Shown in pieces: positions 1-64,000 of a stretch of DNA of 64,000 nucleotides. Below the pieces are notes generated by a model. The model saw only the letters and a list, made by a program, of their open reading frames with translations, was not told where the DNA came from and made no database searches. The first letter of the stretch is position 1. Every line of letters starts with the position of its first letter. The stretch spans positions 83,271,995-83,335,994 of the forward strand of contig OX393555.1 in assembly GCA_947650365.1 (NCBI GenBank). Direction: 5' to 3'. Position numbers and translations under genes: made by a program. The stretch comes from Chamaelirium japonicum. Taxonomy: Eukaryota > Streptophyta > Magnoliopsida > Liliales > Melanthiaceae.

Positions 1-1243
1 GTACGAATGAATTAGAATAGCTCATACGAATGAATTAGAATGAATCGTACGAATGAATTAGAATGGATACATTCGAACGAATGAATTAGAATGGATCGTA
101 CGAATTAATTAGAATGGATCGTACGAATGAATTAGAATAGATACATTTGTGCGAATGAATTAGAATGGATCGTGCGAATGAATTAGAATGGATCGTACGA
201 ATGAATTAGAATGGATACGTTCGTGCGAATGAATTAGAATGGATCATAGGAATGAATTAGAATGGATCGTACATATAAATTGGAATGGATCGTGCGAATG
301 AATTAGAATGGATCGTACGAATGAATTAGAATGGATCCACCGAATGAGTTAGAATGGATTGTACGAATGAATTAGAATGGATCGTACGAATGAATTAGAA
401 TGGATCGTGCGAATGAATTAGAATGGATCGTACGAATGAATTAGAATGGATACATTTGTGCGAATGAATTAGAATGGATCGTACGAATGAATTAGAATGG
501 ATCGTACGAATGAATTAGAATGGATCGTGCGAATGAATTAGAATGGATCGTACAAATGAATTAGAATGGATACATTTGTGCGAATGAGTTAGAATGGATC
601 ATACGATTGAATTAGAATGGATCGTACGAATGAATTAGAATGGATCATACGAATGAATTAGAATGGATCGTGCGAATGAATTAGAATGGATCGTACGAAT
701 GAATTAGAATGGATCATATGAATGAATTAGAATGGATTGTACAAATGAATTAGAATGGATCGTGCGAATGAATTAGAATGGATCGTACGAATGAATTAGA
801 ATGGATACATTTGTGCGAATGAATTAGAATGGATCATACGAATGAATTAGAATGGATCGTACGAATGAATTAGAATGGATCGTGCGAATGAATTAGAATG
901 GATCGTACGAATGAATTAGAATGGATACATTTGTGCGAAGGAGTTAGAATGGATCATACGAATGAATTAGAATGGATCGTACAAATGAATTAGAAAGGAT
1001 CATACGAATGAATTAGAATGGATCGTGCGAATGAATTAGAATGGATTGTACGAATGAGTTAGAATGGATACATTAGAGCGAATAAATTAGAATAGATCGT
1101 AGGAATGAATTAGAATGGATCATACGAATGAATTAGAATGGATCGTGCGAATGAATTAGAATGGATTGTACGAATGAATTAGAATGGATACATTCGTGCG
1201 AATGAATTAGAATGGATCGGACGAATGAATTAGAATGGATCGT
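1..1243 (+). repeat. satellite block, plus orientation
   Basis: Begins in mid-array at the window edge. Several 28-bp monomers (GGATACATTTGTGC type) are spaced through it. It ends at a palindromic flip centred at 1243/1244, preceded by a monomer with the rare variant GGATCGGACG, a mark shared with other flips. Confidence 0.95.
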
Positions 1244-2385
1244 ACGATTCATTCTAATTCATTCGTATGATCCATTCTAATGCATTCGTACGATTCATTC
1301 TAATTCATTCGCACGATCCATTCTAATTCATTCGTACGATCCATTCTTATTCATTCATATGATCCATTCTAATTCATTCGTATGATCCATTCTAATTCAT
1401 TCGTACGATCCATTCTAATTCATTCGTACGATACATTCTAATTTATTCGTATGATCCATTCTAACTCATTCGATGGATCCATTCTAATTCATTCGTACGA
1501 TCTATTCTAATTCATTCGCACGATCCATTCTAATTTATTTGTACGATCCATTCTAATTCATTCCTATGATCCATTCTAATTCATTCGCACTAATGTATCT
1601 ATTCTAATTCATTTGCACGATTCATTCTAATTCATTCCTATGATCCATTCTAATTCATTCATACGATCCATTCTAATTCATTCGCTCAAATGTATCCATT
1701 CTAATTCATTCGTACGATCCATTCTAATTCGTTCGTACGATCCATTCTAATTCGTTCGTACGATCCATTCTAATTCGTTCGTACGATTCATTCTAATTCA
1801 TTCGTACGATCCATTCTAATGCATTCGTACGATTCATTCTAATTCATTCGTATGATCCATTCTAATTCATTCGTACGATCCAAACTTATTCATTCATACG
1901 ATCCATTCTAATTCATTCACACAATCCATTCTAATTCATTCGTACGATCCATTCTAATTCATTCGTATGTTCCATTCTAACTTATTCAGTGTATCCATTC
2001 TAATTCATTCGTACGATCCATTATAATTCATTCGCACGATCTATTCTAATTTATTCGTACGATCCATTTTAATTCATTCGTACGATCTATTCTAATTCAT
2101 TCGCACGAATGTATCCATTCTAATGCATTCGTACGATTCATTCTAATTCATTCGCACAATCCATTCTAATTCATTCGTACGATCCATTCTTATTCATTCA
2201 TACGATCCATTCTAATTCATTCGCACAATCCATTCTAATTCATTCGTATGATCCATTCTAACTCATTCGGTGGATCCATTCTAATTCATTCGTACGATCC
2301 ATTCTAATTCATTCGCACGATCTACTCTAATTCATTCGTACAATCCATTCTAATTCATTCGTACGATCCAATCTAATTCATTTGT
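1244..2385 (-). repeat. satellite block, minus orientation
   Basis: Reads CCATTCTAATTCATTC on the plus strand. It ends where TTCATTTGTGCGAATGAA switches back, centred near 2385. Confidence 0.95.
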
Positions 2386-3803
2386 GCGAATGAATTAGAA
2401 TGGATCGTACGAACGAATTAGAAAGGTTACATTTGTGAGAATGAATAAGAATGGATCGTACGAATGAATTAGAATGGATCGTACGAATGAATTAGAATGG
2501 GTCGTACGAATGAATTAGAATAGCTCATACGAATGAATTAGAATGAATCGTACGAATGAATTAGAATGGTTACATTCGTGCGAATGAATTAGAATAGATC
2601 ATACGAATGAATTAGAATGGATCGTACAAATGAATTAGAATGGATACATTTGTGCGAATGAATTAGAATGGATCGTATATTCGTGCAAATAAATTAGAAT
2701 GGATCGTACAAATGAATTAGAATGGATCGTACGAATGAGTTAATATGGATCGTGCGAATGAATTAGAATGGATCGTACGAATGAATTAGAATGGATCCAC
2801 CGAATGAGTTATAATGGATCATACGAATGAATTAGAATGGATTGTACGAATGAATTAGAATGGATTGTGCGAATGAATTAGAATGGATCGTATGAATGAA
2901 TAAGAATGGATCATACGAATGATTTAGAATCGATCGTGCGAATGAATTAGAATGAATCGTACGAATGCATTAGAATGGATACATTCGTGCGAATGAATTA
3001 GAATAGATCGTACGAATGAATTAGAATGGATCGTACGAATAAATTAGAATGGATCGTGCGAATGAATTAGAATGGATCATACGAATTTATTAGAATGGAT
3101 CCACCGAATGAGTTAGAATGGATAATACGAATGAATTAGAATGGATCATACGAATGAATTAGAATGGATTGTGCGAACGAATTAGAATGGATCGTATGAA
3201 TGAATAAGAATGGATCGTACGAATGAATTTGAATGAATCGTACGAATACATTAGAATGGATCGTACGAATGAATTAGAATGAATCGTACGAACGAATTAG
3301 AATGGTTCGTACGAACGAATTAGAATGGATCGTATGAACGAATTAGAATGGATCGTACGAATGAATTAGAATGGATACATTCGAGCGAATGAATTAGAAT
3401 GGATCGTACGAATGAATTAGAATGGATCGTGCAAATAAATTAGAATGGATACATTCGTGCGAATGAATTAGAATGGATCATAGGAATGAATTAGAATGGA
3501 TCGTACGAATAAATTAGAATGGATCGTGCGAATGAATTAGAATGGGTCGTACGAATGAATTAGAATGGATCCACCGAATGAGTTAGAATGGATCGTATGA
3601 ATGAATTAGAATGGATCATAGGAATGAATTAGAATTGATCGTACGAATGAATTAGAATGGGTCGTACGAATGAATTAGAATGGATCATATGAATGAATAA
3701 GAATGGATCGTACGAATGAATTGGAATGGATCGTGCGAATGAATTAGAATGGATTGTACGAATGCATTAGAATGGATCATACGAATCAATTAGAATGAAT
3801 CGT
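2386..3803 (+). repeat. satellite block, plus orientation
   Basis: It ends at a flip centred 3803/3804 in GAATCGTACGATCC. The next monomer carries CGTCCG, the reverse complement of the CGGACG mark seen before the flip at 1243. Confidence 0.95.
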
Positions 3804-4656
3804 ACGATCCATTCTAATTCATTCGTCCGATCCATTCTAATTCATTCGCACGAATGTATCCATTCTAATTCATTCGTACAATCCATTCTAATTCATTCGC
3901 ACGATCCATTCTGATTCATTCGTATGATCCATTCTAATTCATTCCTACGATCTATTCTAATACATTCGCTCGAATGTATCCATTCTAATTCATTCGTGCA
4001 ATCCATTCTAATTCATTCGCACGATCCATTCTAATTCATTCGTATGGTCCATTCTAATTCATTCGTATGATCCATTCTAACTCATTCGCACAAATGTATC
4101 CATTCCAATTCATTCGTACGATCCATTATAATTCATTCGCACGATCCATTCGAATTCATTTGTATGATCCATTCTAATTCATTTGTACGATCCATTCTAA
4201 TTCATTCGCACAAATGTATCCATTCTAATTCATTCGTACGATCCATTCTAATTCATTCGCACGATCCATTCTAATTCATTCGTACGATCCATTCTAATTC
4301 ATTCGTACGATCCATTCTTATTCATTCATACGATCCATTCTAAATCATCCGTACGATCCATTCTAATTCATTCGTACGATCCATTCTAATTCATTCGCAC
4401 GATCCATTCTAATTCATTCGTACGATCCATTCTAATTCATTCGCACGATCCATTCTAATTTATTCGTACGATCCATTCTAATTCATTCGTACGATCTATT
4501 CTAATTCATTCGCACGAATGTAACCATTCTAATTCATTCGTACGATTCATTCTAATTCATTCGTATGAGCTATTCAAATTCATTCGTACGATCCATTCTA
4601 ATTCATTCGTACGATCCGTTGTAATTCATTCATATAATCCATTCTAATTCATTTGT
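3804..4656 (-). repeat. satellite block, minus orientation
   Basis: Mixed 23- and 28-bp monomers. Switches back within TTCATTTGTATGAATGAA near 4656. Confidence 0.95.
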
Positions 4657-5016
4657 ATGAATGAATTAGAATGGATCGTACGAATGAATTAGAATAGATC
4701 GTACGAATGGATTAGAAAGGTTACATTTGTAAGAATGAATTATAATAGATCGTACGAATGGATTAGAATGGATCGTACGAATGGATCAGAATGGATCGTA
4801 CGAATGGATTAGAATGGATCGTATGAATGAATTAGAATGGATCATACAAATGAATTAGAAAGGTTACATTCATGAAAATGAATTAGAATGGATCGTACGA
4901 ATGAATTAGAATGGATCGTGCGAATGAATTAGAATGGATTGTACGAATGAATTAGAATGGATACATTCATGTGAATGAATTAGAATGGATCGGACAAATG
5001 AATTAGAATGGATCGT
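4657..5016 (+). repeat. short satellite block, plus orientation
   Basis: About 360 bp. Contains GAATGGATTAG-type monomers and a GGTTACATT 28-bp monomer. Ends in the same CGGACA/CGTACG flip cassette as at 1243. Confidence 0.93.
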
Positions 5017-5815
5017 ACGATTCATTCTAATTCATTCGTACGATCCATTCTAATGCATTCGTACGATTCATTCTAATTCATTCGCACGATTCATTCTAAT
5101 TCATTCGTACGATCCATTCTTATTCATTCATACGATCCATTCTAATTCATTCGCACAATCCATTGTAATTTATTCGTACGATCCATTCTAATTCATTCGT
5201 ATGATCCATTCTAACTCATTCAGTGGATCCATTCTAATTCATTCGTACGATCCATTCTAATTCATTCGCATGATCTATTCTAATTTATTCGTACGATCCA
5301 TTCTAATTCATTCGTACGATCTATTCTAATCCATTCGCACGAATGTAACCATTCTAATTTATTCGTATGAGCTATTCTAATTCATTCGTACGATCCATTC
5401 TAATTCATTTGTACGATCCATTGTAATTCATTCATACAATCCATTCAGATTCATTCGCACAATTGTATCCATTCAAATTCATTCGTACGATCCATTCTAA
5501 TAAATACGCACGATCCATTCTAATTCAGTCGTATGAATGTATCCATTTTAATTCATTCGTATAATCCATTCTAATTCATTCGTATGATCTAATTCATTTG
5601 TACGATCTATTCTATTTCATTCCCACAAATGTAACCATTCTAATTCATTCGTACGATCCATTCTAATTCATTCGTACGATCCATTCTAATTCATTCGCAC
5701 GAATGTAACCATTCTAATTCATTCATACGATCCATTCTAATTCATTCGCACAATCCATTCTAATTCATTCGTACAATCCATTCTAATTCATTCGTATGAT
5801 CCATTCTAACTCATT
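5017..5815 (-). repeat. satellite block, minus orientation
   Basis: Ends abruptly inside a monomer (ACTCATTTTAGAATGG near 5815) with no palindrome centre, unlike most other flips. Confidence 0.93.
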
Positions 5816-8800
5816 TTAGAATGGATCGTACGAACGAATTAGAATGGATCGTATGAACGAATTAGAATGGATCGTATGAATGAATTAGAATGGATACATT
5901 CGAGCGAATAAATTAGAATGGATCGTACGAATGGATTAGAATGGATCATACGAATGAATTAGAATGGATCATACAAATGAATTAGAAAGGTTACATTCGT
6001 GAGAATGAATTAGAATTGATCGTACGAATGAATTAGAATGGATACATTCGAGCGAATGAATTAGAATGGATCGTACGAATAAATTACAATGGATCATAGG
6101 AATGAATTAGAATGGATCGTGCAAATGAATTAGAATGGATACATTCGTGCGAATGAATTAGAATGGATCGTAGGAATGAATTAGAATGGATCGTACGAAT
6201 GAATTAGAATGGTTAGATTCGTGCGAATGAATTAGAATGGATCATAGGAATAAATTAGAACGGATCGTGCGAATGAATTAGAATGGATCGTACGAATGAA
6301 TTAGAATGGATCGTACGAATGAATTAGAATGGATACATTCGAGCGAATGAATTAGAATGGATCGTACGAATAAATTAGAATGGATCGAACGAATGAATTA
6401 GAATGGATACATTCGAGCGAATGAATTAGAATAGATCGTTGGAATGAATTAGAATGGATCATATGAATGAATTAGAACAGATCGTAGGAATGAATTAGAA
6501 TGGATCATACGAATGAATTAGAATGGATCGTATGAACGAATTAGAATGGATCGTACGAATGAATTAGAATGGATCGTATGAACGAATTAGAATGGATCGT
6601 ACGAATGAATTAGAATGGATACATTCGAGCGAATGAATTATAATGGATCGTACGAATGAATTAGAATGGATAATAGGAATGAATTAGAATGGATCATGCA
6701 AATGAATTAGAATGGATACATTCGTGCGAATGAATTAGAATGGATTGTGCGAATGAATTAGAATGGATCGTACGAATGAATTAGAATGGATATATTTGAA
6801 CAAATAAATTAGAATGGATCATACGAATGAATTAGAATGGATCGTACGAATGAATTATAATGGATCGTGCGAATGAATTAGAATCGATCGTATGAATAAA
6901 CTAGAATGGATCATACGAATAAATTAGATCGTACGAATGAATTAGAATGGATCGTACGAATGAATTAAAATGTATACATTCATACGACTGAATTAGAATG
7001 GATCGTGCGAATGAATTAGAATGGATCATACGAATGAATTAGAATGGAAACATTCGAGCGAATGAATTAGAATAGATCGTAGGAATGAATTAGAATGGAT
7101 CATACAAATGAATTAGAATGGATCCAACGAATGAATTAGACTTGATCGCACGAATAAATTAGAATGGATACATTCATGCAAATGAATTAGAATGGATCGT
7201 ACGAATAAATTAGAATGGATCATACGAATGAATTAGAATGGATCGTACGAATGAATTAGAATGGATCATATGAATGAATTAGAATGGTTACATTCGTGCG
7301 AATGAATTAGAATGGATCGTACGAATGGATTAGAATGGATCGTCTGAATGGATTAGAACGCATTGTACGAATGAATTAGAATTGATACATTTGTGCGAAT
7401 GAATTAGATTGCATCGTACGAATGAATTAGAATGGATCGTGCGAATGAATTAGAATGGATCGTACGAATGAATTAGAATGGATCCACCGAATGAGTTAGA
7501 ATGGATCATACGAATGAATTAGAATGGATCGTACGAATAAATTAGAATGAATACATTCGAGCAAATGAATTAGAATAGATCATAGGAATGAATTAGAGTG
7601 GATCATACGAATAAATTAGAATGGATCGTGCGAATGAATTAGAATGGATTGCACGAATGAATTAGAATGGATACATTCGAGCGAATGAATTAGAATAGAT
7701 CGTAGGAATGAATTAGAATGGATCATACGAATGAATTAGAATGGATCGTGCGAATGAATTAGAATGGATTGTATGAATGAATTAGAATAAATACATTCGA
7801 GCGAATGAATTAGAATAGATCGTAGGAATGAATTAGAATGGATCAAACGAATGAATTAGAATGGATCATGTGAATGAATTAGAATGGATTGTACGAATGA
7901 ATTAGAATGGATATATTCGTAGGAATGAATTAGAATGGATCATGCGAATGAATTAGAATAGATCGTGCGAATGAATTAGAATGGATTGTACGAATGAATT
8001 AGAATGCATACATTCGAGCGAATGAATTAGAATAGATCGTAGGAATGAATTAGAATGGATCATACGAATGAATTAGAATGGATCGTGCGAATGAATTAGA
8101 ATGGATTGCACGAATGAATTAGAATGGATACATTCGAGCGAATGAATTAGAATAGATCGTAGGAATGAATTAGAATGGATCATACGAATAAATTAGAATG
8201 GATCGTGCGAATGAATTAGAATGGATTGTATGAATGAATTAGAATGGATACATTTGAGCGAATGAATTAGAATAGATCGTAGGAATGAAATAGAATGGAT
8301 CATACGAATTAGAATGGATCGTACGAATGAATTAGAATGGATTGTACGAATGAATTAGAATGGATACATTCATAGGAATGAATTAGAATGGATCATGCGA
8401 ATGAATTAGAATAGATCGTGCGAATGAATTAGAATGGATTGTACGAATGAATTAGAATGGATACATTCGAGCGAATGAATTAGAATAGATTGTAGGAATG
8501 AATTAGAATGGATCATACGAATGAATTAGAATGGATCATGCGAATGAATTAGAATGGATTGTACGAATGAATTAGAATGGATACATTCGTGCGAATGAAT
8601 TAGAATGGATCGTACGAATGAATTAGAATGGATCCACCGAATGAGTTAGAATGGATTATACGAATGAATTAGAATGGATCGTACGAATGAATTAAAATGG
8701 ATACATTCGAGCGAATAAATTAGAATAGATCGTAGGAATGAATTAGAATGGATCATATGAATGATTTAGAATGGATCGTGCGAATGAATTAGAATGGATT

Positions 8801-9295
8801 GTACGAATGAATTAGAATGGATACATTCGAGCGAATGAATTAGAATAGATCGTAGGAATGAATTAGAATGGATCATACGAATGAATTAGAATGGTTCGTA
8901 CGAATGAATTAGAATGGTTCGTACGAATGAATTAGAATGGATACATTCGTACGAATGAATTAGAATGGATCATGTGAATGAATTAGAATAGATCGTACGA
9001 ATGAACTAGAATGGATCGTACGAATAAATTAGAATGGATCGTGAGAATGAATTAGAATGGATCGTATTAATGAATTAGAATGGATCCACCGAATGAGTTA
9101 GAATGGATCGTATGAATGAATTAGAATGGATCGTTCGAATGAATTAGAATGGATTGTGCGAATGAATTAGAATGGATCGTATGAATGAATAAGAATGGAT
9201 CATACGAATGAATTAGAATGTATCGTGAGAATGAATTAGAATGAATCGTACGAATGCATTAGAATGGATCGTACAAATGAATTAGAATGAATCAT
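5816..9295 (+). repeat. longest plus-orientation satellite block
   Basis: About 3.5 kb without a flip. Contains the clearest higher-order repeat of the window at about 7669-8600. Ends at a flip centred 9295/9296 of the CGTCCG class. Confidence 0.95.
7669..8600 (+). repeat. 120-bp higher-order satellite repeat
   Basis: 28-bp monomers (ATACATTCGAGCG type) recur near 7669, 7789, 7909, 8006, 8126, 8246, 8362, 8459 and 8579. Most spacings are 120 bp, that is one 28-bp plus four 23-bp monomers. Two spacings are 97 bp (one monomer fewer) and one is 116 bp (4-bp deletion). Within a unit the linkers keep the order GAGCG, AGATCGTAGG, CATACG, CGTGCG, TTGTACG. Confidence 0.85.
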
Positions 9296-10363
9296 ACGAT
9301 CCATTCTTATTCATTCGTCCGATCCATTCTAATTCATTCGCACGAATGTATCCATTCTAATTCATTCGTACAATCCATTCTAATTCATTCACACGATCCA
9401 TTCTAATTCATTCGTATGATCCATTCTAATTCATTCCTACGATCTATTCTAATTCATTCACTCGAATGTATCCATTCTAATTCATTCGTACAATCCATTC
9501 TAATTCATTCGCACGATCCATTCTAATTCATTCGTATGATCCATTCTAATTCATTCGCTCGAATGTATCCATTCTAATTCATTTGCACGATCCATTCTAA
9601 TTCATTCCTATGATCCATTCTAATTCATTCATACGATCCATTCTAATTCATTCGCTCGAATGTATCCATTCTAATTCATTCGTACGATCCCTTCTAATTC
9701 GTTCATACTATCCATTCGAATTTGTTCGTACGATCCATTCTAATTCGTTCGTACGATCCATTCTAATTCATTCGTACGATCCATTCTAATTCATTCTCAC
9801 AAATGTAACCTTTCTAATTCATTTGTACGATCCATTCTAATTCATTCGTACGATCCATTCTAATCCATTCGTACGATCCATTCTAATCCATTCGTATGGT
9901 CCATTCTAATTCATTCGCACGAATGTAACCATTCTAATTCATTCGTACGATCCATTCTTATTCATTCCTACGATCCATTTTAATTCATTCGCACGAATGT
10001 ATCCATTCTAATTCATTTGCACGATCCATTCTAATTCATTCCTATGATCCATTCTAATTCATTCGTATGATCCATTCTAATTCATTCGCTCGAATGTATC
10101 CATTCTAATTCATTCGTACGATCCATTCTAATTCATTTATACGATCCATTCTAATTCATTCGCACGATCCTTTCTAATTCATTCCTATGATCCATTCTAA
10201 TTCATTCGCACGAATGTAACCATTCTAATTCATTCGTACGATCCATTCTAATTCATTCGCACGAATGTATCCATTCTAATTCATTGGCACGATCCATTCT
10301 AATTCATTCGTACGATCCATTCTAATTCATTCACTCGAATGTATCCATTCTAATTCATTCGTA
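9296..10363 (-). repeat. satellite block, minus orientation
   Basis: Contains both monomer classes and CCATTCGTAC-type monomers. Returns to plus at about 10363 through a non-palindromic join (CGTAGATCGTAGG). Confidence 0.93.
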
Positions 10364-13300: not shown

Positions 13301-13432
13301 ATGAATTAGAATGGATCGTACGAATGCATTAGAATGGATCGTACGAATGAATTTGAATGGATACATTCGAGCGAATGAATTAGAATGGATCGTGCGATGA
13401 ATTAGAATGGATCATACAAATGAATTAGAATG
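10364..13432 (+). repeat. satellite block, plus orientation
   Basis: About 3.1 kb. Carries two copies (from about 10626 and 12139) of a roughly 170-250-bp cassette that starts with GGTTACATTCGTGAG and contains the TTTGAATGG marker; other copies lie elsewhere in the window. The flip at 13432 is centred within AGAATGGATTCT, not within TCGTACGA. Confidence 0.95.
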
Positions 13433-48355: not shown

Positions 48356-48442
48356 GAGTGCTCTTGGCCTGGGCCCTTTCAGCCTAATGTGGATCTCGCT
48401 CCCTGTCAAGGTGATTTGGTGAGCACGGGGGAGCGAACACCT

Positions 48443-48582
48443 GCGAGCTGCACTCAGATACAAGGTGTCCATCCAGCTCCCTGCGGGGCGAGCTCCTGAG
48501 GGGTTGGGAGAGGCGAGCTGCACTCAGATACAAGGTGTCCATCCAGCTCCCTGTGGGGCGGCGAGCTCCTGATGGGCTGGGA
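48443..48582. repeat. 70-bp direct duplication in 3' LTR
   Basis: Two copies with a 70-bp offset, starting at 48443 and 48513. Each contains GCGAGCTGCACTCAGATAC and AGGTGTCCATCCAGCTCC. The same pair occurs in the 5' LTR. Confidence 0.85.
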
Positions 48583-48679
48583 GGGCGAGCTTTTTGGACG
48601 GGCTCCCTCGAGAACTCTTATCTCAGATGCGTTTGCAATGCTACCCAAGATATGTGGTTTCTGTCTACCCCCAACATTA

Positions 48680-49866: not shown

Positions 49867-49961
49867 GGGGACGGGGGGCAATTTTTACTGCTGCGTGAAA
49901 ACAGCTCTCCCTTCTCCCTTTGCTTCTAGTGCTTTCAGCTCGCTTTAGCCCTTCTGCTCTC

Positions 49962-51848: not shown

Positions 51849-51911
51849 CTGCTGGGCCGCAACGTTTTCGCGCGGGCTCCCTTCGCTTCCATAAGCGAAG
51901 GCCTTGCCGAG

Positions 51912-51983
51912 GTACTCACCGCACCTGCCTCCTTATAAATCTTAGTCTCAATTTTTGCTAACTGTTTCACCTTCCTTATGCAG
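51912..51983 (+). other. probable 72-bp intron of the antisense gene
   Basis: Donor GAG|GTACTC at 51911/51912. Acceptor TTCCTTATGCAG|GCG at 51983/51984, preceded by a T-rich tract and a branch-point-like GCTAAC. Both ends are phase 0, so exon 1 and exon 2 join in frame. Length is near the lower limit for plant introns. The alternative donor at 51840 would give 144 bp. Confidence 0.7.
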
Positions 51984-52511
51984 GCGGAGAAGCAGAGCCA
52001 GGCGCTGGCCGCGGAGGTCGCTGGGGCCGGGAAGGCACTGGCCGCCTTGTTCGATGATTCCCTTCGGGGGTCCGAGCGCAAGGTAGACGAGCACATCCAC
52101 GAGCTTCAGCGAGCCAAGGGCTCCGAGGAGCTGAGGGTGGAGTCAGAGGCACTGCACCGCAGGGTCAAAACCCTGGCGTCAGGCCTCGCCATGGCCGAGG
52201 TAGCCAAAGGCCTGTCCGCTACTGCCCTCCTCAAGGCCAAGGCGGAGCGAGACGAAGCTGTGTCCGCCCGGGAGGTCGCACAGCGGGAGGCGGCTCAACT
52301 TCAGGGCGAGGTCGCTGCTCTGAAGACGGAGATTGCGGCCTTGAAGGAGACACACGCCAACGGCCTTCGGGCTCAGCAAGGCCGCCTCCAAGCCCAACTG
52401 GACGATCTCCTCAAGAAAGGCGCCCTGGCCGCTGTGGAGAAATACAAGACCGAAAGGTCGAAGAAGCGGCGCCGAGGGGACGACAGTGGGGCGGAGACAA
52501 GCAAGCCTTGA
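51984..52511 (+). CDS. antisense-gene exon 2: coiled-coil C-terminus
   Basis: 175 codons plus stop. Nearly the whole exon is Ala/Glu/Lys/Leu-rich with heptad spacing, for example LQGEVAALKTEIAALKETHA, which indicates a long coiled coil. It ends with a basic, nuclear-signal-like SKKRRRGDD stretch. An ATG at 51978 falls inside the acceptor region and is probably not the start. A coiled coil after the gypsy-specific domain is common in antisense proteins of Tat elements, which suggests self-association; partners are unknown. Confidence 0.75.
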   Translation, partial: AEKQSQALAAEVAGAGKALAALFDDSLRGSERKVDEHIHELQRAKGSEELRVESEALHRRVKTLASGLAMAEVAKGLSATALLKAKAERDEAVSAREVAQREAAQLQGEVAALKTEIAALKETHANGLRAQQGRLQAQLDDLLKKGALAAVEKYKTERSKKRRRGDDSGAETSKP

Positions 52512-52551
52512 GCTTGCTGCCTTGTAACTACTTTTGTAATTTTTGCCAATC

Positions 52552-53495: not shown

Positions 53496-56400
53496 TTAGG
53501 CATAGAACTTGCGAAGGTGTAAAGCATTCCAAGGCCGCTCTAACAGGTCGCCTTCAGCGGTCATCAACTGGTAAGCCCCCTGGCCTCGCGCTTCGCGTAT
53601 TATGTAAGGGCCTTCCCAGTTCGCCGCGAGCTTTCCTGCATTAGGCTCTTGAGTGTTTGCGAACACCTTCCTCATCACCATGTCCCCGGCTTTGAATGCC
53701 CGATGGCGGACTCTTTTATCATAGGCGCGCTTCATCTCTTGTCGGTATCCGGCGAGGTGTAGATTGGCGCGCTCTCGTCTTTCTTCAAGTTGATCAAGGG
53801 AGTCGACTAGCAGTTTGTCGTTGTCGACCTCCGCCGATGCAAACCTTCTTTCAGTGGGCAGCTCGGCCTCTATGGGTAGCACGGCTTCGCAACCAAAAGT
53901 GAGACTGAAAGGGGATTCGTTAGTTGAGCGACGTGGAGTAGTGCGATAGGCCCACAAGACTCCATCGAGCTCCTGCTCCCACAATCCTTTTTTCCCTTCC
54001 AGCCTCTTCTTGAGGTTGTCCAAGATCACGCGATTCGTCGCTTCGGCCTGCCCGTTGCTTTGAGGGTACCTCAGGGATGAGAACCTTAGGTCGACCCCAT
54101 ATTCAACACAAAAGCTTCTGATCAAGCGATTGTCGAACTGGCGACCATTGTCGGTGATCAGCACTCGTGGCAGCCCAAAGCGGCAGAAGATATTCTTCCA
54201 AAGGAAGTCCTTGACTTGCTTCTCGCCTATCTTAGCTAGCGGGACCGCTTCCACCCATTTGGTGAAGTAGTCCGTAGCTACTAGGATGAATTTCTTTTGC
54301 CGGGCTGACACAGGGAAAGGTCCCACAATGTCCAACCCCCATTGCTGGAAAGGCCAGGGGCTCGCCAGAGGATGCAGTTCTTCTGCGGGCATATGGTTCG
54401 TGGTGGCGTGCTTCTGGCACTGGATGCACCTCTGGGCGACCTTCAAAGCGTCTTGCTCCAGAGTGGGCCACCAGTATCCTTGCCTTCGTACTTTCGCAGC
54501 AAGAGACCGCCCACCGGCGTGGTTTCCCAGCTCGCCAGAGTGAATGCACTTTAGAACTTCTTCGGTTTCCGGGCTCTCGACGCAACGGAGACTTGGCCCG
54601 CCAAAGGATCTTCGAAAAAGGCGATCCCAGCGAATGAGATAGCGCCCAGCGCATTTCTCCACTCGCCGGGCTTCCTCTCTATCCTCTGGTAGCTCGCCCT
54701 TCTGGAGAAAGCGAAAAATGGGGGCGGTCCACCCGCTGAGTGGTACGTTGGCGGAGACTTGGTTAACAGCGGGCTCCATCAGTTGGAGCCGAGACTGACT
54801 TTGGACTTTGATGAGAATCTGGTGAGCCTCTGATGTTCCCAGCAAAGAGGCGGCGTTTGCCAAAGCATCAGCTCGCCTATTATCGGCTCGCGGAATTTGT
54901 TCGAAGGAAATCTTTTCGAACTCCGCGGCCTTGTGCTTCACCAGATCCACGTAGCCCGCCATTCGTGCGTCCCGAGAGGCGTACTCCCCATTGACTTGGC
55001 AAACAATTAGCTGGGAATCGCTAAAGACCTTCAGGCGTTCGGCGCCTACCTCTTTGGCGAGCTCCAGGCCGGCCAGCAGCGCCTCATATTCCGCCTCATT
55101 GTTGGTAGCGGCGAAATCCAGTCGGACTGACTTTTCCAGAAGTACCGACTGGGCGATCAGTGCGACCCCGATCCCAGCCCCCAAAGCGTTGGAGGATCCA
55201 TCGACGAATAATTCCCAGCCTGCCTCCTCTGAACGCTTAGTCGGAGGATGCTCGCCTTGATTGTCCAAGAACCTCGCCTTCCCAGGGTGTGCCTCAGTTG
55301 GCTCATCCTCCCGGTACTGGACCGGTTCTTCTATGGGGAAGTCCGCCAAGAAATCGGCGAGCGCCTGTCCTTTGACCGCAACTCGAGGGACATACTCCAA
55401 GCCGTAGGCGGCGAGCTCGGCGGACCAACGGTAGAGCCTGCCGGCTACTGAGGGCCTGGAGAGAGCGCTCTTTAGAGGGTGCTCTGTGATGACCCTGACA
55501 GGGTGCGCCGAGAAGTAGGGGTGGAGCTTTCTCGTGGTAAGGACCAAGGCCAATGCGACCTTCTCGATTGGTCGATACCGGAGCTCGGCGGGAAGCATCG
55601 TGTGGCTTACAAAGTAGACAGGCCGCTCCACCTTTGCTTCTTCCACAACAAGGACCCTGCTCACCGCATTCTCAGTGACCGCAAGGTACACGCCGAGTTC
55701 GGCGCCCTCTTTGGGTGCCGCTAAGATCGGTGGGCTCGCCAGGTAGTCCTTGATCTTTTGGAAGGCGTGCTCGCACTTCTCATCCCAACAAATGCTTGCT
55801 CCTTTTCGTAGCAGCTCGAAAAGAGGTCGGCAGTTGTCTGAGGATTTGGAGATGAACCGATTGAGCGCGGCGATTCGCCCGCTCAGCCTCTGGACTTCCT
55901 GCCGGGTCCTCGGCGCGGGCATCTCGACAAGTGCTCGGATCTGCCCAGGGTCGGCCTCGATCCCCCTGTGGGTGACCAGGTACCCGAGGAATTTCCCCGA
56001 CGTCACCCCGAATGCGCACTTCGCCGGGTTTAGCCTCATTTGGTACTTTCTCAGTACCTCGAAGGTTTCGCGGAGATCGGCAACATGCCCCTCCCTCTCC
56101 CGACTCTTCACCAGGAGGTCGTCTACATAAACTTCGACGTTTCTGCCGATCTGATCTTTGAACATCTGAGTGACTAGCCTTTGGTAGGTCGCTCCAGCGT
56201 TCTTAAGTCCGAACGGCATCACTCGATAGCAGTACAACTTCTGGTAGCCCGCTCCGGAGTAGAAGGCGGTCTTCTCCTGATCATCGGCGTGGAGAGGTAT
56301 CTGGTTATACCCAGAATATCCATCCATGAAGGACAGGGCCTGGAACCCGACAGCTGCGTCGACCAGTGCGCCTATTCTCGGAAGAGGAAATCCATCCTTC

Positions 56401-56957
56401 GGGCATGCCTTGTTGAGGTCGGAGAAGTCGATGCACACCCTGACCGCTCCGCTCTTCTTTGGCACCGCCACGATATTGGAGATCCACTCGGGGAAGTGCG
56501 CCTCGCGGATGAAGCCGGCTCGCTCCAGCTTGTCTATCTCTGCCGCCACTGCAATGGACTTTGCAGCAGGTATGTGCCGAGCTTTCTGCTTGACCGACGG
56601 GAACTCCTTCATGGTGTGCAGACGATGACAGGCGACCTCCGGGTCAATCCCTGGCATGTCCGCGAAGCTCCAGGCGAATACGTCACGGTATTCCCTGAGC
56701 AAGTTGGTTATGGCCAGGACCTCGCCCTTGGTTAGCGAGGTCCCGAGGCTAACAACTCCTGGCCCTTCCTTGCCGCCAATGTCGACCTCTTGAAGTGGTT
56801 CGGCAATTGGAAAACTTCCTCTCTTGGGGGTTGTCGGGCGACCTCCCTCCTCCAACTTAAGGTCCACACCGCTCCCACCCGGGGGTGGAGTAGGGGACTT
56901 AAGCGAGGAGGCCTCCAGCGGGCTCCCCACTAGCTCGCTCGTAGCGGGCGGTAATTG
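53496..56957 (-). CDS. pol: pol: RT, two RNase H domains, integrase
   Basis: Copies element RNA into DNA and integrates it. The frame continues that of gag-pro after the UAG at 56958-56960. There is no ATG at its head (the first start-like codon is GTG at 56928-56930), so translation most likely enters by stop readthrough. Numbering from that GTG (1144 residues): RT about 118-320 with FMDGYSG (D203) and YVDD (268-271). RNase H 1 about 380-530 is degenerate: the usual TDAS Asp is replaced (VYLAVTE) and TDH reads TEH. The second, archaeal-type RNase H, about 571-695, is intact: FVDGSS D577, NNEAEYEAL E614, FSDSQ D638, RADAL D688. Integrase has a zinc-binding H797, H804, C835, C838 and the D,D35,E triad D867, D927, E963, then a GPY motif (WEGPYII, about 1105-1111) and no chromodomain. 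It ends in TAA. Confidence 0.95.
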   Translation of the reverse strand, partial: QLPPATSELVGSPLEASSLKSPTPPPGGSGVDLKLEEGGRPTTPKRGSFPIAEPLQEVDIGGKEGPGVVSLGTSLTKGEVLAITNLLREYRDVFAWSFADMPGIDPEVACHRLHTMKEFPSVKQKARHIPAAKSIAVAAEIDKLERAGFIREAHFPEWISNIVAVPKKSGAVRVCIDFSDLNKACPKDGFPLPRIGALVDAAVGFQALSFMDGYSGYNQIPLHADDQEKTAFYSGAGYQKLYCYRVMPFGLKNAGATYQRLVTQMFKDQIGRNVEVYVDDLLVKSREREGHVADLRETFEVLRKYQMRLNPAKCAFGVTSGKFLGYLVTHRGIEADPGQIRALVEMPAPRTRQEVQRLSGRIAALNRFISKSSDNCRPLFELLRKGASICWDEKCEHAFQKIKDYLASPPILAAPKEGAELGVYLAVTENAVSRVLVVEEAKVERPVYFVSHTMLPAELRYRPIEKVALALVLTTRKLHPYFSAHPVRVITEHPLKSALSRPSVAGRLYRWSAELAAYGLEYVPRVAVKGQALADFLADFPIEEPVQYREDEPTEAHPGKARFLDNQGEHPPTKRSEEAGWELFVDGSSNALGAGIGVALIAQSVLLEKSVRLDFAATNNEAEYEALLAGLELAKEVGAERLKVFSDSQLIVCQVNGEYASRDARMAGYVDLVKHKAAEFEKISFEQIPRADNRRADALANAASLLGTSEAHQILIKVQSQSRLQLMEPAVNQVSANVPLSGWTAPIFRFLQKGELPEDREEARRVEKCAGRYLIRWDRLFRRSFGGPSLRCVESPETEEVLKCIHSGELGNHAGGRSLAAKVRRQGYWWPTLEQDALKVAQRCIQCQKHATTNHMPAEELHPLASPWPFQQWGLDIVGPFPVSARQKKFILVATDYFTKWVEAVPLAKIGEKQVKDFLWKNIFCRFGLPRVLITDNGRQFDNRLIRSFCVEYGVDLRFSSLRYPQSNGQAEATNRVILDNLKKRLEGKKGLWEQELDGVLWAYRTTPRRSTNESPFSLTFGCEAVLPIEAELPTERRFASAEVDNDKLLVDSLDQLEERRERANLHLAGYRQEMKRAYDKRVRHRAFKAGDMVMRKVFANTQEPNAGKLAANWEGPYIIREARGQGAYQLMTAEGDLLERPWNALHLRKFYA

Positions 56958-56960
56958 CTA
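56952..56960 (-). promoter_or_regulatory. leaky UAG between gag-pro and pol (UAG-CAA-UUA)
   Basis: On the minus strand the gag-pro stop reads TAG followed by CAATTA. This matches the CARYYA readthrough context first defined in tobamoviruses, in which plant ribosomes read a fraction of UAG codons as sense. The downstream frame stays open through all of pol with no frameshift, so readthrough would make a gag-pro-pol fusion of about 1988 codons. The motif is seen directly; its function here is inferred. Confidence 0.8.
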
Positions 56961-59462
56961 GGAGGGTGCGGGCCTCTTGGCCTCGGCGACCTCCATGTCC
57001 CTGAGGTGAAGGACATCCTGCTCGCATCGGGTAGCGGCTACCTGATCACCCCGAATTACTACGACCCCGCTCGCGGTCGGGAATTTGAGGGCCTGATGGT
57101 TGGGTGAAGCTACCGCATTCATTTGCCTTAGCCAAGGCCGCCCAAGGATGGCGTTAAATGCGGAACTTCCATCCACTACCGCGAAGCGGACTTGGCGAGC
57201 CTCTGGGCCAGCGGTCACCGTAAGGGTTATCTCCCCTGCCACTCTGGCGACCTCTCCGGTGAACCCACTGAGGGAGCTCGTCGAGGGAGACAGGTCGGCG
57301 AGTCTCAACCCCATTCGCAGGTAGGCCGACAGAAAAAGGATGTCCACGGCGCTCCCCGGATCAACCAGAGCTCGCCTCACCTCGATGTTAGCCATCATCA
57401 GGCGTATGACGAGGGGGTCATTGTGGGGCGTAACGACCCCAGTCATGTCATCTTCCGAAAACCAGAGAAAATCGCGGGCTTCCACCCTTGGTGCTTGAAG
57501 TAAAGTAGGAGTTAGCGAGACGGAAAATACCTTTTGTGCCCGCTCCATCTCCCTGACTCGTCGGCGGGCTTCATTACTGGATCTCGGGCCGCACAGCCGC
57601 CCGCTGATGGTATGGCAGATCGCCGGTCCTTCCGCGGGAGGCGGAGGCAGGGCGGGCTCAGCGGGCCCCGGGCGATCTCCCTCCCGAGGGGCCCGTGTCG
57701 GTACTACCTCGAACCTCCTTGGAGGCGAAATAAACTGATTCAAGTGGCCCTGGGTGACCAAGTCCTCGAGGTGGTTCTTGAGAGCCCGGCATCTGTTAGT
57801 GTGATGCCCAGGGCTTCGATGAAAGGCGCACCGCCGCGAGTTGTCGGTAGAGCCAGGCTCTCCGACCTGTAGGGGTGGCAGGTACTGGAAGAAAGGTTCA
57901 TTCCGAATCTGATGGAAGATTTGTCCTGGCGAGTCGGTCAGCACGGTGAAATCCCGCTCCCCGGGTCCTGGAGGCAGGCGCCAGTTCGCCGGCCTTCCAG
58001 CGACAGCCGTGGGGGCTTCAGCGGGCTGTTCAGCAGGAACAGCGGGCGGTCCAGGCAAAGCCACCGCCAGGGGCACCTCCCTTATCTCCACGGCCTTGAC
58101 GACGAGCGGTCGCGGGGCCGGAGGAGGTCGCTGCTCGACTGCCTTTCCCTTTCGGTCTAGCACAGCGTCTTCGAGCTTGATGTGTTGCTGGACCAGGGCA
58201 AATAGTTCAACCATCGTGCGAGGGTCCTTGATCACTAGAGCGTCATGAAGCTTGCAACCCTCGGGGAGGGCGCTTCTGAAAGCGCTCACCATGGTACGAT
58301 CTTGGCCCGCCGCGTCTTCCAGAGCGAGGTAGGCGCTCCGGAATCGCGTTGCGAAGCACCGGAGCGTCTCGCGAGCTCCCATGGTTAAAGTGAACAGAGA
58401 CTCGATTCTCTTCGGGGGCTGCCTATTGCAGCGATACTGCTCCAGGAATAGCCTAGAGAGAGTTGGAAAGTCGGGGATCGTGCCGGGCGGCAACTTGTGG
58501 AACCAGTTCAATGCCGAGCCGGTCAAACTGCTCGGGAATGCTCGGCACAAGACGTGGTCTTGGTCCCGGAAAAACAGAAGCTTTCTGTAAGCCAAGAGAT
58601 GGTCAACGGGATCCTGCGACCCGTCGAACAATACAAACTTCGGGGGGGTCCAGTGGTGCGGAAAACCCCCTTGGTGGACCTCGCTGGTGAAAGGCGAGCT
58701 ACCTCCGTGGGCGGCAAGGTCTTCAAGTAAATCTACTGGCGCACTAGGTCGCCGCCAGCGCCCGGGGAGAACTCCCAGAGGCGGCTGCGCAGGTCCTAGG
58801 CGGTCTCGTACGCTCCCTTGTGGCGAGGTCGGCCCCACCCCGCGGCGACCCTCGGGGGCAACCGCTCGGCGGGCTCCTTGCTGTCCACCCACGGATTCCT
58901 TCGGCGCGTCAGTTGGTCTGTGGGAGGCCGTTGCCTCTCGAGCTCCTGAAGATATTTCCACCGCGGGCTCTTTCCCTCGTCGCCGATGGCGTGGGTCGCG
59001 ATCCCGCTCTAGAGATCTTGCCTCCGACCCCTCAGAATCGGCGCTCCGGCTACGGCGGCAGGGAATGGTCGCGCGCGAGGTCGCCTGGTTGCTAGATCGC
59101 TGGGTGACTAGCTTCTGCAACCTTGTGAGCGGGGTTTCCGGCACCCCGCGTACAGCCGCTCTCCCGACTGGGGGTTCCGGTTGGGAAACCTGCCGCACCG
59201 GAGCGACCGTGGGCGGTCGCGATGCTGACGCCGGTGGTCGCACCGGAGACACCGTCTTCGCCGGCCCAGATCGTCGGCTGGCCGCCGGAGCCTGACGCAA
59301 TCGTGTCAGCTCCTCCATCATCGCCCGCTGGGTGGCCAACATCTCCAACAAGAGTTGGTCGCTGAGCGGGACCTGGGGCTGAGGGGTCTCGACCGGAAGC
59401 TCGCTGCGCGCAGATCTGGCACGAGTCCTCGGTCGCCTGCGTCCCCTTGTCGCCGGAGCCAT
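56958..59462 (-). CDS. gag-pro: gag-protease polyprotein
   Basis: 834 codons from ATG at 59460-59462 (context AGGATGGC, purine at -3 and G at +4), about 90 bp after the primer-binding site. The N-terminal ~270 residues are Arg/Pro/Ser-rich and probably disordered. A retrotransposon gag (capsid) domain spans about 273-435 (PPKFVLFDGSQDP, LNWF, LSRLFLEQY). A C-x2-H-x4-H-x4-C zinc knuckle at 545-558 (CAFHRSPGHHTNRC) is the Tat variant of CCHC. The aspartic protease is about 685-795, with the active-site segment RALVDPGSAVDIL (D701) and ILGRPWL (772-778). The active site reads D-P-G where D-S/T-G is usual. The ORF ends at the leaky UAG. No frameshift is visible. Confidence 0.93.
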   Translation of the reverse strand: MAPATRGRRRPRTRARSARSELPVETPQPQVPLSDQLLLEMLATQRAMMEELTRLRQAPAASRRSGPAKTVSPVRPPASASRPPTVAPVRQVSQPEPPVGRAAVRGVPETPLTRLQKLVTQRSSNQATSRATIPCRRSRSADSEGSEARSLERDRDPRHRRRGKEPAVEISSGAREATASHRPTDAPKESVGGQQGARRAVAPEGRRGVGPTSPQGSVRDRLGPAQPPLGVLPGRWRRPSAPVDLLEDLAAHGGSSPFTSEVHQGGFPHHWTPPKFVLFDGSQDPVDHLLAYRKLLFFRDQDHVLCRAFPSSLTGSALNWFHKLPPGTIPDFPTLSRLFLEQYRCNRQPPKRIESLFTLTMGARETLRCFATRFRSAYLALEDAAGQDRTMVSAFRSALPEGCKLHDALVIKDPRTMVELFALVQQHIKLEDAVLDRKGKAVEQRPPPAPRPLVVKAVEIREVPLAVALPGPPAVPAEQPAEAPTAVAGRPANWRLPPGPGERDFTVLTDSPGQIFHQIRNEPFFQYLPPLQVGEPGSTDNSRRCAFHRSPGHHTNRCRALKNHLEDLVTQGHLNQFISPPRRFEVVPTRAPREGDRPGPAEPALPPPPAEGPAICHTISGRLCGPRSSNEARRRVREMERAQKVFSVSLTPTLLQAPRVEARDFLWFSEDDMTGVVTPHNDPLVIRLMMANIEVRRALVDPGSAVDILFLSAYLRMGLRLADLSPSTSSLSGFTGEVARVAGEITLTVTAGPEARQVRFAVVDGSSAFNAILGRPWLRQMNAVASPNHQALKFPTASGVVVIRGDQVAATRCEQDVLHLRDMEVAEAKRPAPS

Positions 59463-59550: not shown

Positions 59551-59748
59551 AATGTTCGGGGGATTTTTCGCTGGTCCGTGCGGGCTGCCTGCAAGACAAA
59601 GAAAAGAGAACATGAGAACGGCTGGCTCCCTCAGGAGCGCAGACCCTCCGACGCTCAAGTCAGTCACAGTGGCACAACGGCGAGCTGTAATGGACCAAAG
59701 AGGAAGGAAAAGGGATTTCGAACCTGTACTATGGAGCCTGGGGGTGAG

Positions 59749-59756
59749 CATTTATA
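59749..59756 (-). promoter_or_regulatory. TATA box in 5' LTR
   Basis: The minus strand reads CTATAAATGC. Transcription would start about 30 bp further on (near 59720), leaving about 170 bp of R-U5 before the LTR end at 59553. No competing TATA box was noticed in the LTR. Confidence 0.65.
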
Positions 59757-60583
59757 GCAATCGGCAGCCTACCGTGGCCCGACACGTGGAGATTCTTCCG
59801 GCGCCTTCTAGACCCCCCACGTTCTGGCTCGCGTGGGTCTGACAGTCCTTGGTACTCGCGCCCTGACATTCTGTCGTCAGGCCTGCCAGGCGGTTTGAGT
59901 GGGGGAGGGAATCTTTCTTGTCGTGGCCAGGTGGCCCTTCTGGAATGTTCAAGTCTGGGAGGTCTCGAACTGATTCGAGCGAGCTTCCGTGGACCACGTT
60001 TGTCCACGTAGCTTCCGTGGGGTTTTGACACCTGGCATCCTCTCATACATTGTGGGCGACCTCCGACGGGGAGCTAAGGTGAGCTCGCCCTCCATTGCTC
60101 CGCCTTCTCTTCCACATCTATCAAGAGTCGGACCTCACGGGAGCAACCTCCTCGATAAACTGGGGAATTCTGGCGAGCTTGGGTGAGCTCCTGAGCGAGC
60201 TAGGGGCAAGCTCCTGCGCGAGCTAGGGGCGTCCGCGATGCCGGTGTCTTCGTTATGCATGACGGTCTAACTCCCGCTATCACTGCCAGCGAGTTCTCGC
60301 GCGGGCTTGGCGAACTCCGGGGCGAGCTCCTGAGCGAGCTTAGGCGAGCTCCTGGGTGAGCTTGGCGAGCTGCGGGGCGAGCTCCTGAGCGAGCTTCCGG
60401 GCGATCTCAGGCGAGCTCCATCGAGCTCAGGCGAGCTCCTGAGCGAGCTTCTGGGCGATCTCAGGCGAGCTCCATCGAGCTCAGGCGAGCTCTTAAGAGT
60501 GCTCTTGGCCTGGGCCCTTTCAGCCTAATGTGGATCTCGCTCCCTGTCAAGGTGATTTGGTGAGCACGGGGGAGCGAACTCCT

Positions 60584-60723
60584 GCGAGCTGCACTCAGAT
60601 ACAAGGTGTCCATCCAGCTCCCTGCGGGGCGAGCTCCTGAGGGGTTGGGAGAGGCGAGCTGCACTCAGATACAAGGTGTCCATCCAGCTCCCTGTGGGGC
60701 GGCGAGCTCCTGATGGGCTGGGA
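60584..60723. repeat. 70-bp direct duplication in 5' LTR
   Basis: Counterpart of the duplication in the left LTR, with unit starts at 60584 and 60654. Its presence in both LTRs shows that it predates this insertion. Confidence 0.85.
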
Positions 60724-60817
60724 GGGCGAGCTTTTTGGACGGGCTCCCTCGAGAACTCTTATCTCAGATGCGTTTGCAATGCTACCCAAGATATGTGGTT
60801 TCTGTCTACCCCCAACA

Positions 60818-60822
60818 GATAT
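60818..60822. repeat. target site duplication, right
   Basis: GATAT directly after the terminus CCCCCAACA. Removing the element and one copy restores a regular 28-bp monomer of the GGATATATTTGTAC type. Confidence 0.95.
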
Positions 60823-61253
60823 ATTTGTACGAATAAATTAGAATCGATCATACGAATAAATTAGAATGGATCGTACGAATGAATTAGAATGAATCGTGCG
60901 AATGAATTAGAATGGATCGTGCGAATGAATTAGAAAGGTTACATTTGTGAGAATGAATTAGAATAGATCGTACGAATGAATTTGAATGAATCGTACGAAT
61001 GGATTAGAATGGATCGAACGAATGGATTAGAATGGATCGTACGAATGGATTAGAATAGATCGTATGAATGAATTAGAATGGATCGTACGAATGGATTAGA
61101 ATGGATCGTGCAAATTAATTAGAATGGTTACATTCATGCGAATGAATTAGAATGGATCGTATGAACGAATTAGAATGGATCGTATAAATTAGAATGGATA
61201 CATTCATGCGAATGAATTAGAATGGATCGGACGAATGAATTAGAATAGATCGT
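60818..61253 (+). repeat. satellite block, plus orientation, after the element
   Basis: Same orientation as the block before the element, so together they formed one block of about 2.2 kb. Ends in a CGGACG-marked flip at 61253. Confidence 0.95.
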
Positions 61254-64000
61254 ACGATCCAATCTAATTCATTCGTACGATCCATTCTTATTCATTCATA
61301 CGATCTATTCTAATTCATTCGTACGATCCATTCTAATTCATTCGTACGATCCATTATAATTGATTCGTATGATCCATTCTAACTCATTCGGTGGATCCAT
61401 TCTAATTCATTCGTACGATCCATTCTAATTCATTCGCACGATCCATTCTAATTTATTCGTACGATCCATTCTAATTCATTCCTATGATCCATTCTAATTC
61501 ATTCGCACGAATGTATCCATTCTAATGCATTCGTACGATTCATTCTAATTCATTCGCACGATCCATTCTAATTCATTCGTACGATCCATTCTTTTTCATT
61601 CATACGATCAATTCTAATTCATTCGCATAATCCATTCTAATTTATTCGTACGATCCATTGTAATTCATTCATACGATCCATTCTAATTCATTCCTATGAT
61701 CCATTCTAATTCATTCATACGAATGTATCCATTCTAATTCATTTGCACGATCTATTCTAATTCATTCCTATGATCCATTCTAATTCATTCGTACGATCCA
61801 TTCTAATTCATTCGCTCGAATGTATCCATTCTAATTCATTCGTACGATCCATTCTAATTCGTTCATACGATCCATTCTAATTCGTTCGTATGATCCATTC
61901 TAATTCGTTCGTACGATTCATTCTAATTCATTCGTACGATCTACTCGAATGCATTCGTACGATTCATTCTAATTCATTCACACGATCCATTCTAATTCAT
62001 TCGTACGATCCATTCTTATTCATTCATATGATCCATTCTAATTCATTCGCACAATCCATTCTAATTCATTCGTATGATCCATTCTAATTCATTCGTATGA
62101 TCCATTCTAACTCATTCGGTGGATCCATTCTAATTCATTCGTACGATCCATTCTAATTCATTCGCACGATCCATTCAAATTTATTCGTACGATCCAGTCT
62201 AATTCATTCGTACGATCTATTCTAATTCATTCGCATGAATGTATCCATTCTAATGCATTCATACGATTCATTCTAATTCATTCGCACGATCCATTCTAAT
62301 TCATTCGTACGATCCATTCTTATTCATTCATACGATCCATTCTAATTCATTCGCACAATCCATTCTAATTCATTCGTACGATCCATTCTAATTAATTCGT
62401 ACGATCCATTCTAATTCATTCGTACGATGCATTCTAATCCATTCGTACGATCCATTCTAATACATTCGCACGATCCATTCTAATCCATTCGCATGATCCA
62501 TTCTAATTCATTTGTACGATCCATTCTAATTCATTCGTACGATCCATTCTAATTCATTCGCACGATCCATTCTAATTTATTCATACGATCCATTCTAATT
62601 CATTCGTACGATCCATTCTAATTCATTCGTACGATCCATTCTAATTAGTTCTTACGATCCATTCTAATTCGTCCGTACGATCCATTCTAATTCATTCGTA
62701 CGATTCATTCTAATTCATTCGTACGATCCATTCTAATTCATTCGCACAAATGTATCCATTCTAATTCATTCGTATGATCCATTCTAATTCATTCGCACGA
62801 TCCATTCTAATTCATTTGTACGAATGTATCCATTCTAATTCATTCGCACGATCCATTCTAATTCATTCGCACGATCCATTCTAATTCATTCGTATGATCC
62901 ATTCTAATTTATTCGTATGATCCATTCTAATTCATTTGCATGAATGTATCCATTCTAATTCATTCGTACGATCCATTCCAATTCATTCGTATGATCCATT
63001 CTAATTCATTCATGCAATCCATTCTAATTCATTCATACGATCCATTCTAACTCATTCATACGATCCATTCTAATTCATTCGCATGAATGTATGTATCCAT
63101 TCTAGTTCATTCGCACGAATGTATCAATTCTAATTCATTCGTACGATCTATTCTAATTCAATCGCAAGATCCATTCTAACTCATTTGTACGATCCATTAT
63201 AATTCATTGGTACGATCCATTCTAATTCATTCGCACGATACATTCTAATTCATTCGTACAAATGTATCCATTCTAATTCATTCGTACGATCCATTCTAAT
63301 TCATTCGTACGATTCATTCTAATTCATTCGCACAAATGTATCCATTCTAATTCATTCATACGATCCATTCTAATTCATTCGCACGATCCATTCTAATTCA
63401 TTCGTACGATCCATTTTAATTCATTCGCACGATCCATTCTAATTCATTCGTACGATCCATTCTAATTCATTCGCACGAATGCATCCATTCTAATGCATTC
63501 GTACGATTCATACTAATTCATTCGCACGATCGATTCTAATTCATTCGTACGATCCATTCTAATTCATTCGTCCGATCCATTCTAATTCATTTGCACGAAT
63601 GTATCCATTCTAATTCATTCGTACGATCCATTCTAATTCATTCGTACGATCCATTCTAATTTATTCGCATGATCCCTTCTAATTCATTCGAACGATCCAT
63701 TCTAATTAATTCGTACGATCTAATTCATTCGTATGATCCATTCTAATTCATTCGTACAATCTAATTCATTCGTACGATCCGTTCTAATCCATTCTTACTA
63801 TCCATTCTAATCCATTCGTACGATCCATTCTAATCCATTCGTACGATCCATTCTAATTCATTCCTACGATCTATTCTAATTCATTCGCTCGAATGTATCC
63901 ATTCTAATTCATTCGTATGATCCATTCTAATTCATTCGTATGATCCATTCAAATTCATTCGCACGATCCATTCTAATTCATTCGCACAAATGTATCCATT
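61254..64000 (-). repeat. satellite block, minus orientation, to window end
   Basis: About 2.75 kb with no flip. Contains both monomer classes, including repeated TAATGCATTCG monomers (near 61525, 61950, 62250 and 63490), which suggests higher-order organisation. Truncated monomers occur near 63715-63775. Confidence 0.95.

Follow-up and report, generated by a model that had tools for sequence, protein, structure and literature searches.

The DNA analysed here is a stretch of 64,000 nucleotides (the window). Most of it is a satellite of 23-bp and 28-bp monomers, very probably the Chio1/Chio2 satellite of the plant Chionographis, and the remainder is one retrotransposon. Segmentation with a two-strand Viterbi model assigned 50,603 of the 64,000 bases to the satellite, at 94.1% identity to the model monomer, one position of which scores both A and G as a match. 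The satellite was divided into 59 strand blocks of 20 to 3,480 bp (median 501 bp), amounting to 28,114 bp on the + strand and 22,489 bp on the - strand. All non-satellite sequence belonged to a single insert of 13,397 bases (47421-60817); the guanine-cytosine content was ~33% in the array vs 56-66% in 2-kb steps within the insert. The satellite parts of the window are:

1..47421, no single strand: Chio-type satellite array of 23-bp GATCGTACGAATGAATTAGAATG and 28-bp GATACATTCGTGCGAATGAATTAGAATG monomers in alternating + and - blocks (Viterbi segmentation, monomer counts, Tandem Repeats Finder)
60818..64000, no single strand: satellite array resumes, + until 61253, then - up to the end of the window (Viterbi segmentation)

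The segmentation yielded 2,193 monomer pieces including 2,076 full monomers, which were exactly 23 bp long in 1,646 cases, exactly 28 bp in 347 and of another length in 83. An earlier note on this DNA had described 23- and 28-bp monomers intermixed over about 50 kb in arrays that flip strand, and these counts, together with 57 flips between the 59 blocks, agree with that description. The range which it gave for the satellite, 1..64000, has to be corrected, as 47422-60817 (13.4 kb) is a retrotransposon; its figure of about 50 kb allows for the insert, which it did not name.

The majority consensus sequences were GATCGTACGAATGAATTAGAATG for the 23-mer and GATACATTCGTGCGAATGAATTAGAATG for the 28-mer, and Tandem Repeats Finder returned an identical 23-bp consensus in a different rotation. 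The two consensus sequences differ from each other by ACATT, a 5-bp indel, and by one A/G substitution. Identity of the 23-mers to their consensus was 93.6% on average. The 28-mers were spaced in a regular manner: successive 28-mers were most commonly separated by 4 (70), 2 (52), 3 (38) or 5 (34) 23-mers (n = 253 intervals, after exclusion of another 44 that contained odd-sized monomers), and only one pair stood side by side vs 60 expected from shuffles of the monomers of the whole window, block ends being ignored. Autocorrelation peaks at 74, 97, 120 and 143 bp fit this spacing of mostly 2 to 5 23-mers. The best self-matches of the satellite determined by BLAST included 95% identity over 359 bp and 92% over 1,151 bp. 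Large recent duplications within the satellite were considered and rejected, since no single satellite self-match reached at least 97% over 200 bp; the three matches at this level belong to the retrotransposon.

Chio1 and Chio2 of Chionographis japonica are described as 23- and 28-bp variants, with Chio1 dominant, which differ by a 5-bp deletion and a 1-bp substitution, intermingle, form forward and reverse arrays within each unit and include a higher-order repeat cluster (Kuo et al. 2023, PMC10264360). According to the same text, an 8-bp dyad, termed 'conserved' and not spelled out in letters there, can form a hairpin between two Chio monomers; three dyad symmetries are stated for Chio1 and four for Chio2. 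Furthermore, the arrays are reported to be megabase-sized, bound by CENH3 in an assembly-wide mapping and high in CpG methylation (mCpG), and 7 to 11 units per chromosome constitute a line-like holocentromere (PMC10264360). A holocentromere of this type, composed of a small number of megabase arrays whose satellite is very short, was published in 2023 and is a notable exception among plant centromeres.

The earlier note had proposed identity with this satellite, and every described feature that was tested was found in the window: the lengths of 23 and 28 bp, the dominance of the 23-mer, the 5-bp indel with one substitution, the intermingling, both orientations, the higher-order spacing and an 8-bp stem between neighbouring monomers. 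The consensus 23-mer dimer folds with an 8-bp stem through the dyad and a 15-base loop at -6.8 kcal/mol. CpG decay, described below, is consistent with the high mCpG of Chio. Additionally, the 9-mer TTCGTACGA, given in the Fig. 2 legend of Kuo et al. (2025, PMC12722358) as common to Chio and to the satellite Chama of Chamaelirium, was found in the reverse complement of the 23-mer consensus; a random 23-mer would contain it on either strand with an estimated chance of ~2 in 10,000. We therefore regard it as very probable that the window belongs to a Chionographis array of Chio1/Chio2, most likely that of the published C. japonica assembly, and the published 8-bp dyad would then correspond to TCGTACGA.

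Several points weigh against this assignment. The identity rests on the described features and the shared 9-mer TTCGTACGA, the monomers being compared by description. The sole substitution between the consensus 23-mer and 28-mer falls inside TCGTACGA, which reads TCGTGCGA in 28-mers, and the term 'conserved' fits this poorly; the presumed counterpart of the published dyad shows the lowest conservation within the 23-mer, and the 28-mer consensus carries it in altered form. Any other species of Chionographis that has this satellite would look alike and cannot be told apart from C. japonica. A text search of the literature with six 10-mers of the monomer matched only papers with unrelated titles, and in a search with TCGTACGA PMC12722358 was the only Chionographis paper among the matches listed. 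An origin outside plants was also considered; the exact 23-mer had no match in prokaryotic and viral contig collections, which speaks against those sources only.

The 9-mer and the tribe are shared with Chama, the macro-monocentromere satellite of the sister plant Chamaelirium luteum, and so is a hairpin-forming dyad. The array could accordingly be Chama or an intermediate form. In its published description, Chama has a 60-bp monomer and homogeneous, consistently oriented arrays, and none of the identified arrays is interspersed with retrotransposons (PMC12722358). In contrast, the window has monomers of 23 and 28 bp, 57 flips and a retrotransposon; monomer length and orientation contradict an assignment to Chama, which we consider extremely improbable.

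The satellite system is thus already known, and the retrotransposon-interrupted window adds details on repeat decay and on changes of direction: flip axes on the dyad (27 of 57), one junction present in 11 copies, a young retrotransposon and a dyad whose CpGs decay. It also offers a usable test of a question left open by the 2023 paper, namely whether the 8-bp dyad matters.

As a Chio array, the window would probably form part of a CENH3-bound holocentromere unit, and its DNA would provide the foundation for the epigenetic maintenance of CENH3 chromatin and kinetochores. A pericentromeric or relict Chio array not bound by CENH3 at this place would be compatible with Chio identity and concerns activity only. 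The divergence of the 23-mers (93.6% mean identity), the dense flips and a retrotransposon devoid of a chromodomain might suit an array edge. Nothing seen in the window marks an array border, however, and CENH3 enrichment was mapped to Chio arrays generally (PMC10264360); we judge such an unbound array to be unlikely, at about one chance in a few.

The earlier note had assigned the palindrome TCGTACGA to each monomer. This proved to be an overstatement: the exact octamer was present in 650 of the 2,076 full monomers, about a third, namely in 631 of 1,646 23-mers, in 3 of 347 28-mers and otherwise in odd-sized monomers. Its frequency in the satellite was nevertheless far above base composition (673 occurrences vs a mean of 0.56 in 50 base shuffles). 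Besides intact TCGTACGA, possible states of this site include TCATACGA and TCGTGCGA, the latter being held by the 28-mer consensus. Mean conservation was 0.891 over the eight dyad positions vs 0.960 elsewhere in the 23-mer. When 16 octamers (starts 0 to 15 of the 23-mer) were compared, those overlapping the dyad most were intact least often (0.38-0.40), and the octamer intact most often was ATTAGAAT (0.795).

Both CpGs of the monomer are located in the dyad, and transitions there reached 12.0% per site vs 2.8% at other sites. Methylation-driven loss is a likely cause of this decay at the CpGs, given the high mCpG published for Chio arrays (PMC10264360). A further strongly varying site of the dyad is not part of a CpG: A was changed to G in 297 of 1,646 23-mers. 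G is the base of the 28-mer at this position, and exchange with 28-mers may explain the variation. Low conservation of the dyad alone is no proof of a missing function, because CpGs are hypermutable.

The dyad might still be kept by selection, its hairpin or a protein bound to it specifying the centromere. It is the published candidate (PMC10264360), and neighbouring 23-mer pairs folded better than base-shuffled ones (-3.25 vs -1.32 kcal/mol; sample of 400 of the 1,224 neighbouring pairs); furthermore, the hypermutability of CpG could mask weak selection. The dyad octamer, however, was intact in 38.3% of the 23-mers vs 79.5% for the best of the 16 octamers, and the fraction of perfect palindromes at the dyad was 0.400, vs 0.402 under independent variation of the positions. 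In addition, the folding energy of real neighbours (-3.25 kcal/mol) was close to that of column-permuted pairs (-3.24 kcal/mol, P = 0.85) and was similar to that of pairs with random partners (-3.42 kcal/mol, P = 0.36). Since real pairs fold like column-permuted and random-partner pairs, the capacity to form the hairpin stems from the consensus, and no sign of its maintenance or selection was detected within the window. The dyad is the most decayed part of the 23-mer, and its palindromicity does not exceed the level left by independent mutation. This argues against selection of the hairpin monomer by monomer, and we regard specification of the centromere through a selected dyad as improbable.

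The 57 flips comprised 29 from + to - ('+-') and 28 from - to + ('-+'). In 27 of them the mirror axis lay exactly on the dyad, TCGT/ACGA (the slash marks the axis): 19 of 29 '+-' flips and 8 of 28 '-+' flips. A further 10 of the 28 '-+' flips had in common an offset of -10 modulo 23, and most of these were placed, by eye, on GAT(C) beside a 28-mer; five of the 28 had in common an offset of -1 modulo 23. Both are candidate placements. One junction family accounted for 11 of the 29 '+-' flips at a cut-off of 86% identity over 150 bp. Seven of the 11 copies were oriented one way and four the other, as judged by whether a junction carried CGGACG, the complementary CGTCCG or a closely similar variant. 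Among the 78 pairs formed by 13 junctions that were picked by eye as members of this family or near it, 18 fell within one co-linear self-match of at least 86% identity, up to 2.25 kb long. A member of the family lies near the left end of the window:

1240..1247, no strand assigned: example of a '+-' flip with its axis on TCGT/ACGA, break after 1243, one of the 11 family copies (flip analysis)

Independence of the dyad flips was tested by collapsing copies under 20 settings for each flip type, which combined two flank lengths with two linkages and five cut-offs; the null was a uniform flip axis (1 in 23). After collapsing, the '+-' flips ranged from 11 of 20 clusters on the dyad (P = 1e-10) to 1 of 8 (P = 0.3), and the '-+' flips from 8 of 22 (P = 2e-6) to 0 of 2 (P = 1). 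Support was lowest under single linkage; under average linkage it fell no further than 2 of 9 clusters (P = 0.06) and 2 of 10 clusters (P = 0.07), both at the loosest cut-off, which is near background identity. Independent reuse of the dyad by flips is suggestive; it counts against it that the support ranges from very strong to none with the method of collapsing.

Short-period satellites are hard to assemble, and strand flips could arise as assembly artefacts. Copies of one junction had diverged from each other (86% identity cut-off), unlike one assembly error that is repeated, and the retrotransposon has clean long terminal repeats (LTRs) and a 5-bp duplication. Forward and reverse blocks are, moreover, published as a property of each unit (PMC10264360). 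An artefactual origin of the flips is thus very improbable. Recent foldback inverted duplication was likewise rejected as a source of flips: in the 42 of 57 junctions with both arms of at least 150 bp, the arms were no more alike than random +/- pieces (mean identity 0.754, whereas the null averaged 0.785; none of the 42 ranked within its top 5%). This test concerns recent foldback, and older copies may have existed.

Very short strand blocks were clustered at two places, with blocks of 92 and 20 bp at 32772-32883 and of 54, 65, 107 and 103 bp at 38839-39668, the latter with one of 501 bp among them. This clustering suggests local hot spots of flipping.

Because flips are concentrated on the dyad, its role may lie in shaping the structure of the array instead of in each monomer. 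Tentatively, and with less than even confidence, we propose that the dyad matters as the flip point of the array and not as a hairpin signal: exchanges at TCGTACGA would reverse the strand, and the junctions would be copied in both orientations. Flips could arise through microhomology-type exchange or template switching at short dyads, and the junctions could then spread, flanks included, by conversion-like copying. No published analysis of flip axes was found in the literature searched, figures and supplements being outside that search.

A '-+' flip on the dyad axis spells CATTCGTACGAATG, and the core of the 28-mer consensus, CATTCGTGCGAATG, matches it in all but one base. Because CATTCGTGCGAATG nearly equals the flip product, the 28-bp Chio2 monomer may be the fossil of a flip on the dyad axis. 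The resemblance is no more than a hint, because the chance that a 5-base insertion of random sequence lengthens the dyad by another three pairs is ~1 in 64 (calculated with the broken central pair left aside).

The insert is a retrotransposon that integrated into the satellite; the array goes on in the same strand on its far side. Its parts are:

47417..47421, no strand assigned: target site duplication GATAT, left copy, within the satellite
47422..48676, - strand: LTR, 3' in the orientation of the element, TGTT...AACA, 1,255 bp
49920..52511, + strand: two extra open reading frames (ORFs; 49920-51848 and 51978-52511), antisense to gag-pol and on its 3' side
53496..56930, - strand: pol ORF with reverse transcriptase, RNase H, second RNase H (RVT_3), integrase zinc binding and integrase core (Pfam)
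56958..59462, - strand: gag ORF (Retrotrans_gag), in frame with pol, ending with one TAG (Pfam)
59553..60817, - strand: LTR, 5' in the orientation of the element, 1,265 bp
60818..60822, no strand assigned: target site duplication GATAT, right copy

The LTRs differed by 6 substitutions per 1,255 aligned positions and by one gap. At plant substitution rates of 0.65-1.3e-8 per site per year this would correspond to an insertion 0.2-0.4 million years ago, i.e. to a young element.

In the pol ORF, Pfam placed RT_RNaseH at 414-509, RVT_3 at 577-694 and the integrase at 786-954. Two RNase H domains are described as unique to the Tat lineage of Ty3/gypsy, and a second RNase H between RNase H and integrase as the arrangement of angiosperm Ogre and Retand elements (Neumann et al. 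2019, PMC6317226). RVT_3 would correspond to the published aRH domain, and by its predicted domain order the insert is a Ty3/gypsy retrotransposon of the Tat lineage; the arrangement points to an angiosperm source. The insert resembles the Ogre/Retand branch in the position of the second RNase H, the presence of extra coding capacity in the form of an extra ORF, the 5-bp target duplication and internal tandem repeats, but differs in that gag and pol lie in one frame split by TAG. This single codon, at 56958-56960, may reflect decay or a programmed feature.

The element is probably not a centromeric retrotransposon of the CRM type. No chromodomain (CHD or CHDCR type) was found in the four ORFs scanned at E 1e-3; the argument is carried by the two RNase H domains, because 22% of CRM elements are reported to have no chromodomain (PMC6317226). 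An insertion of this kind is not unexpected, because LTR elements occur, according to the Fig. 4 legend of PMC10264360, both in (peri)centromeric and in intercentromeric regions, and for the same reason a retrotransposon inside a Chio array is not new in itself.

The two extra ORFs had no Pfam match at E 1e-3. For the first, a weak match to Transposase_28 was obtained (E 0.11, 13.2 bits vs a cut-off of 26.2), and for the second only weak matches below the cut-off, several of them to coiled-coil families; the two may represent a single gene split by an intron. Within the retrotransposon, Tandem Repeats Finder located internal tandem repeats at 48824-49550 (~146 bp x 5) and at 52985-53382 (~78 bp x 5.1).

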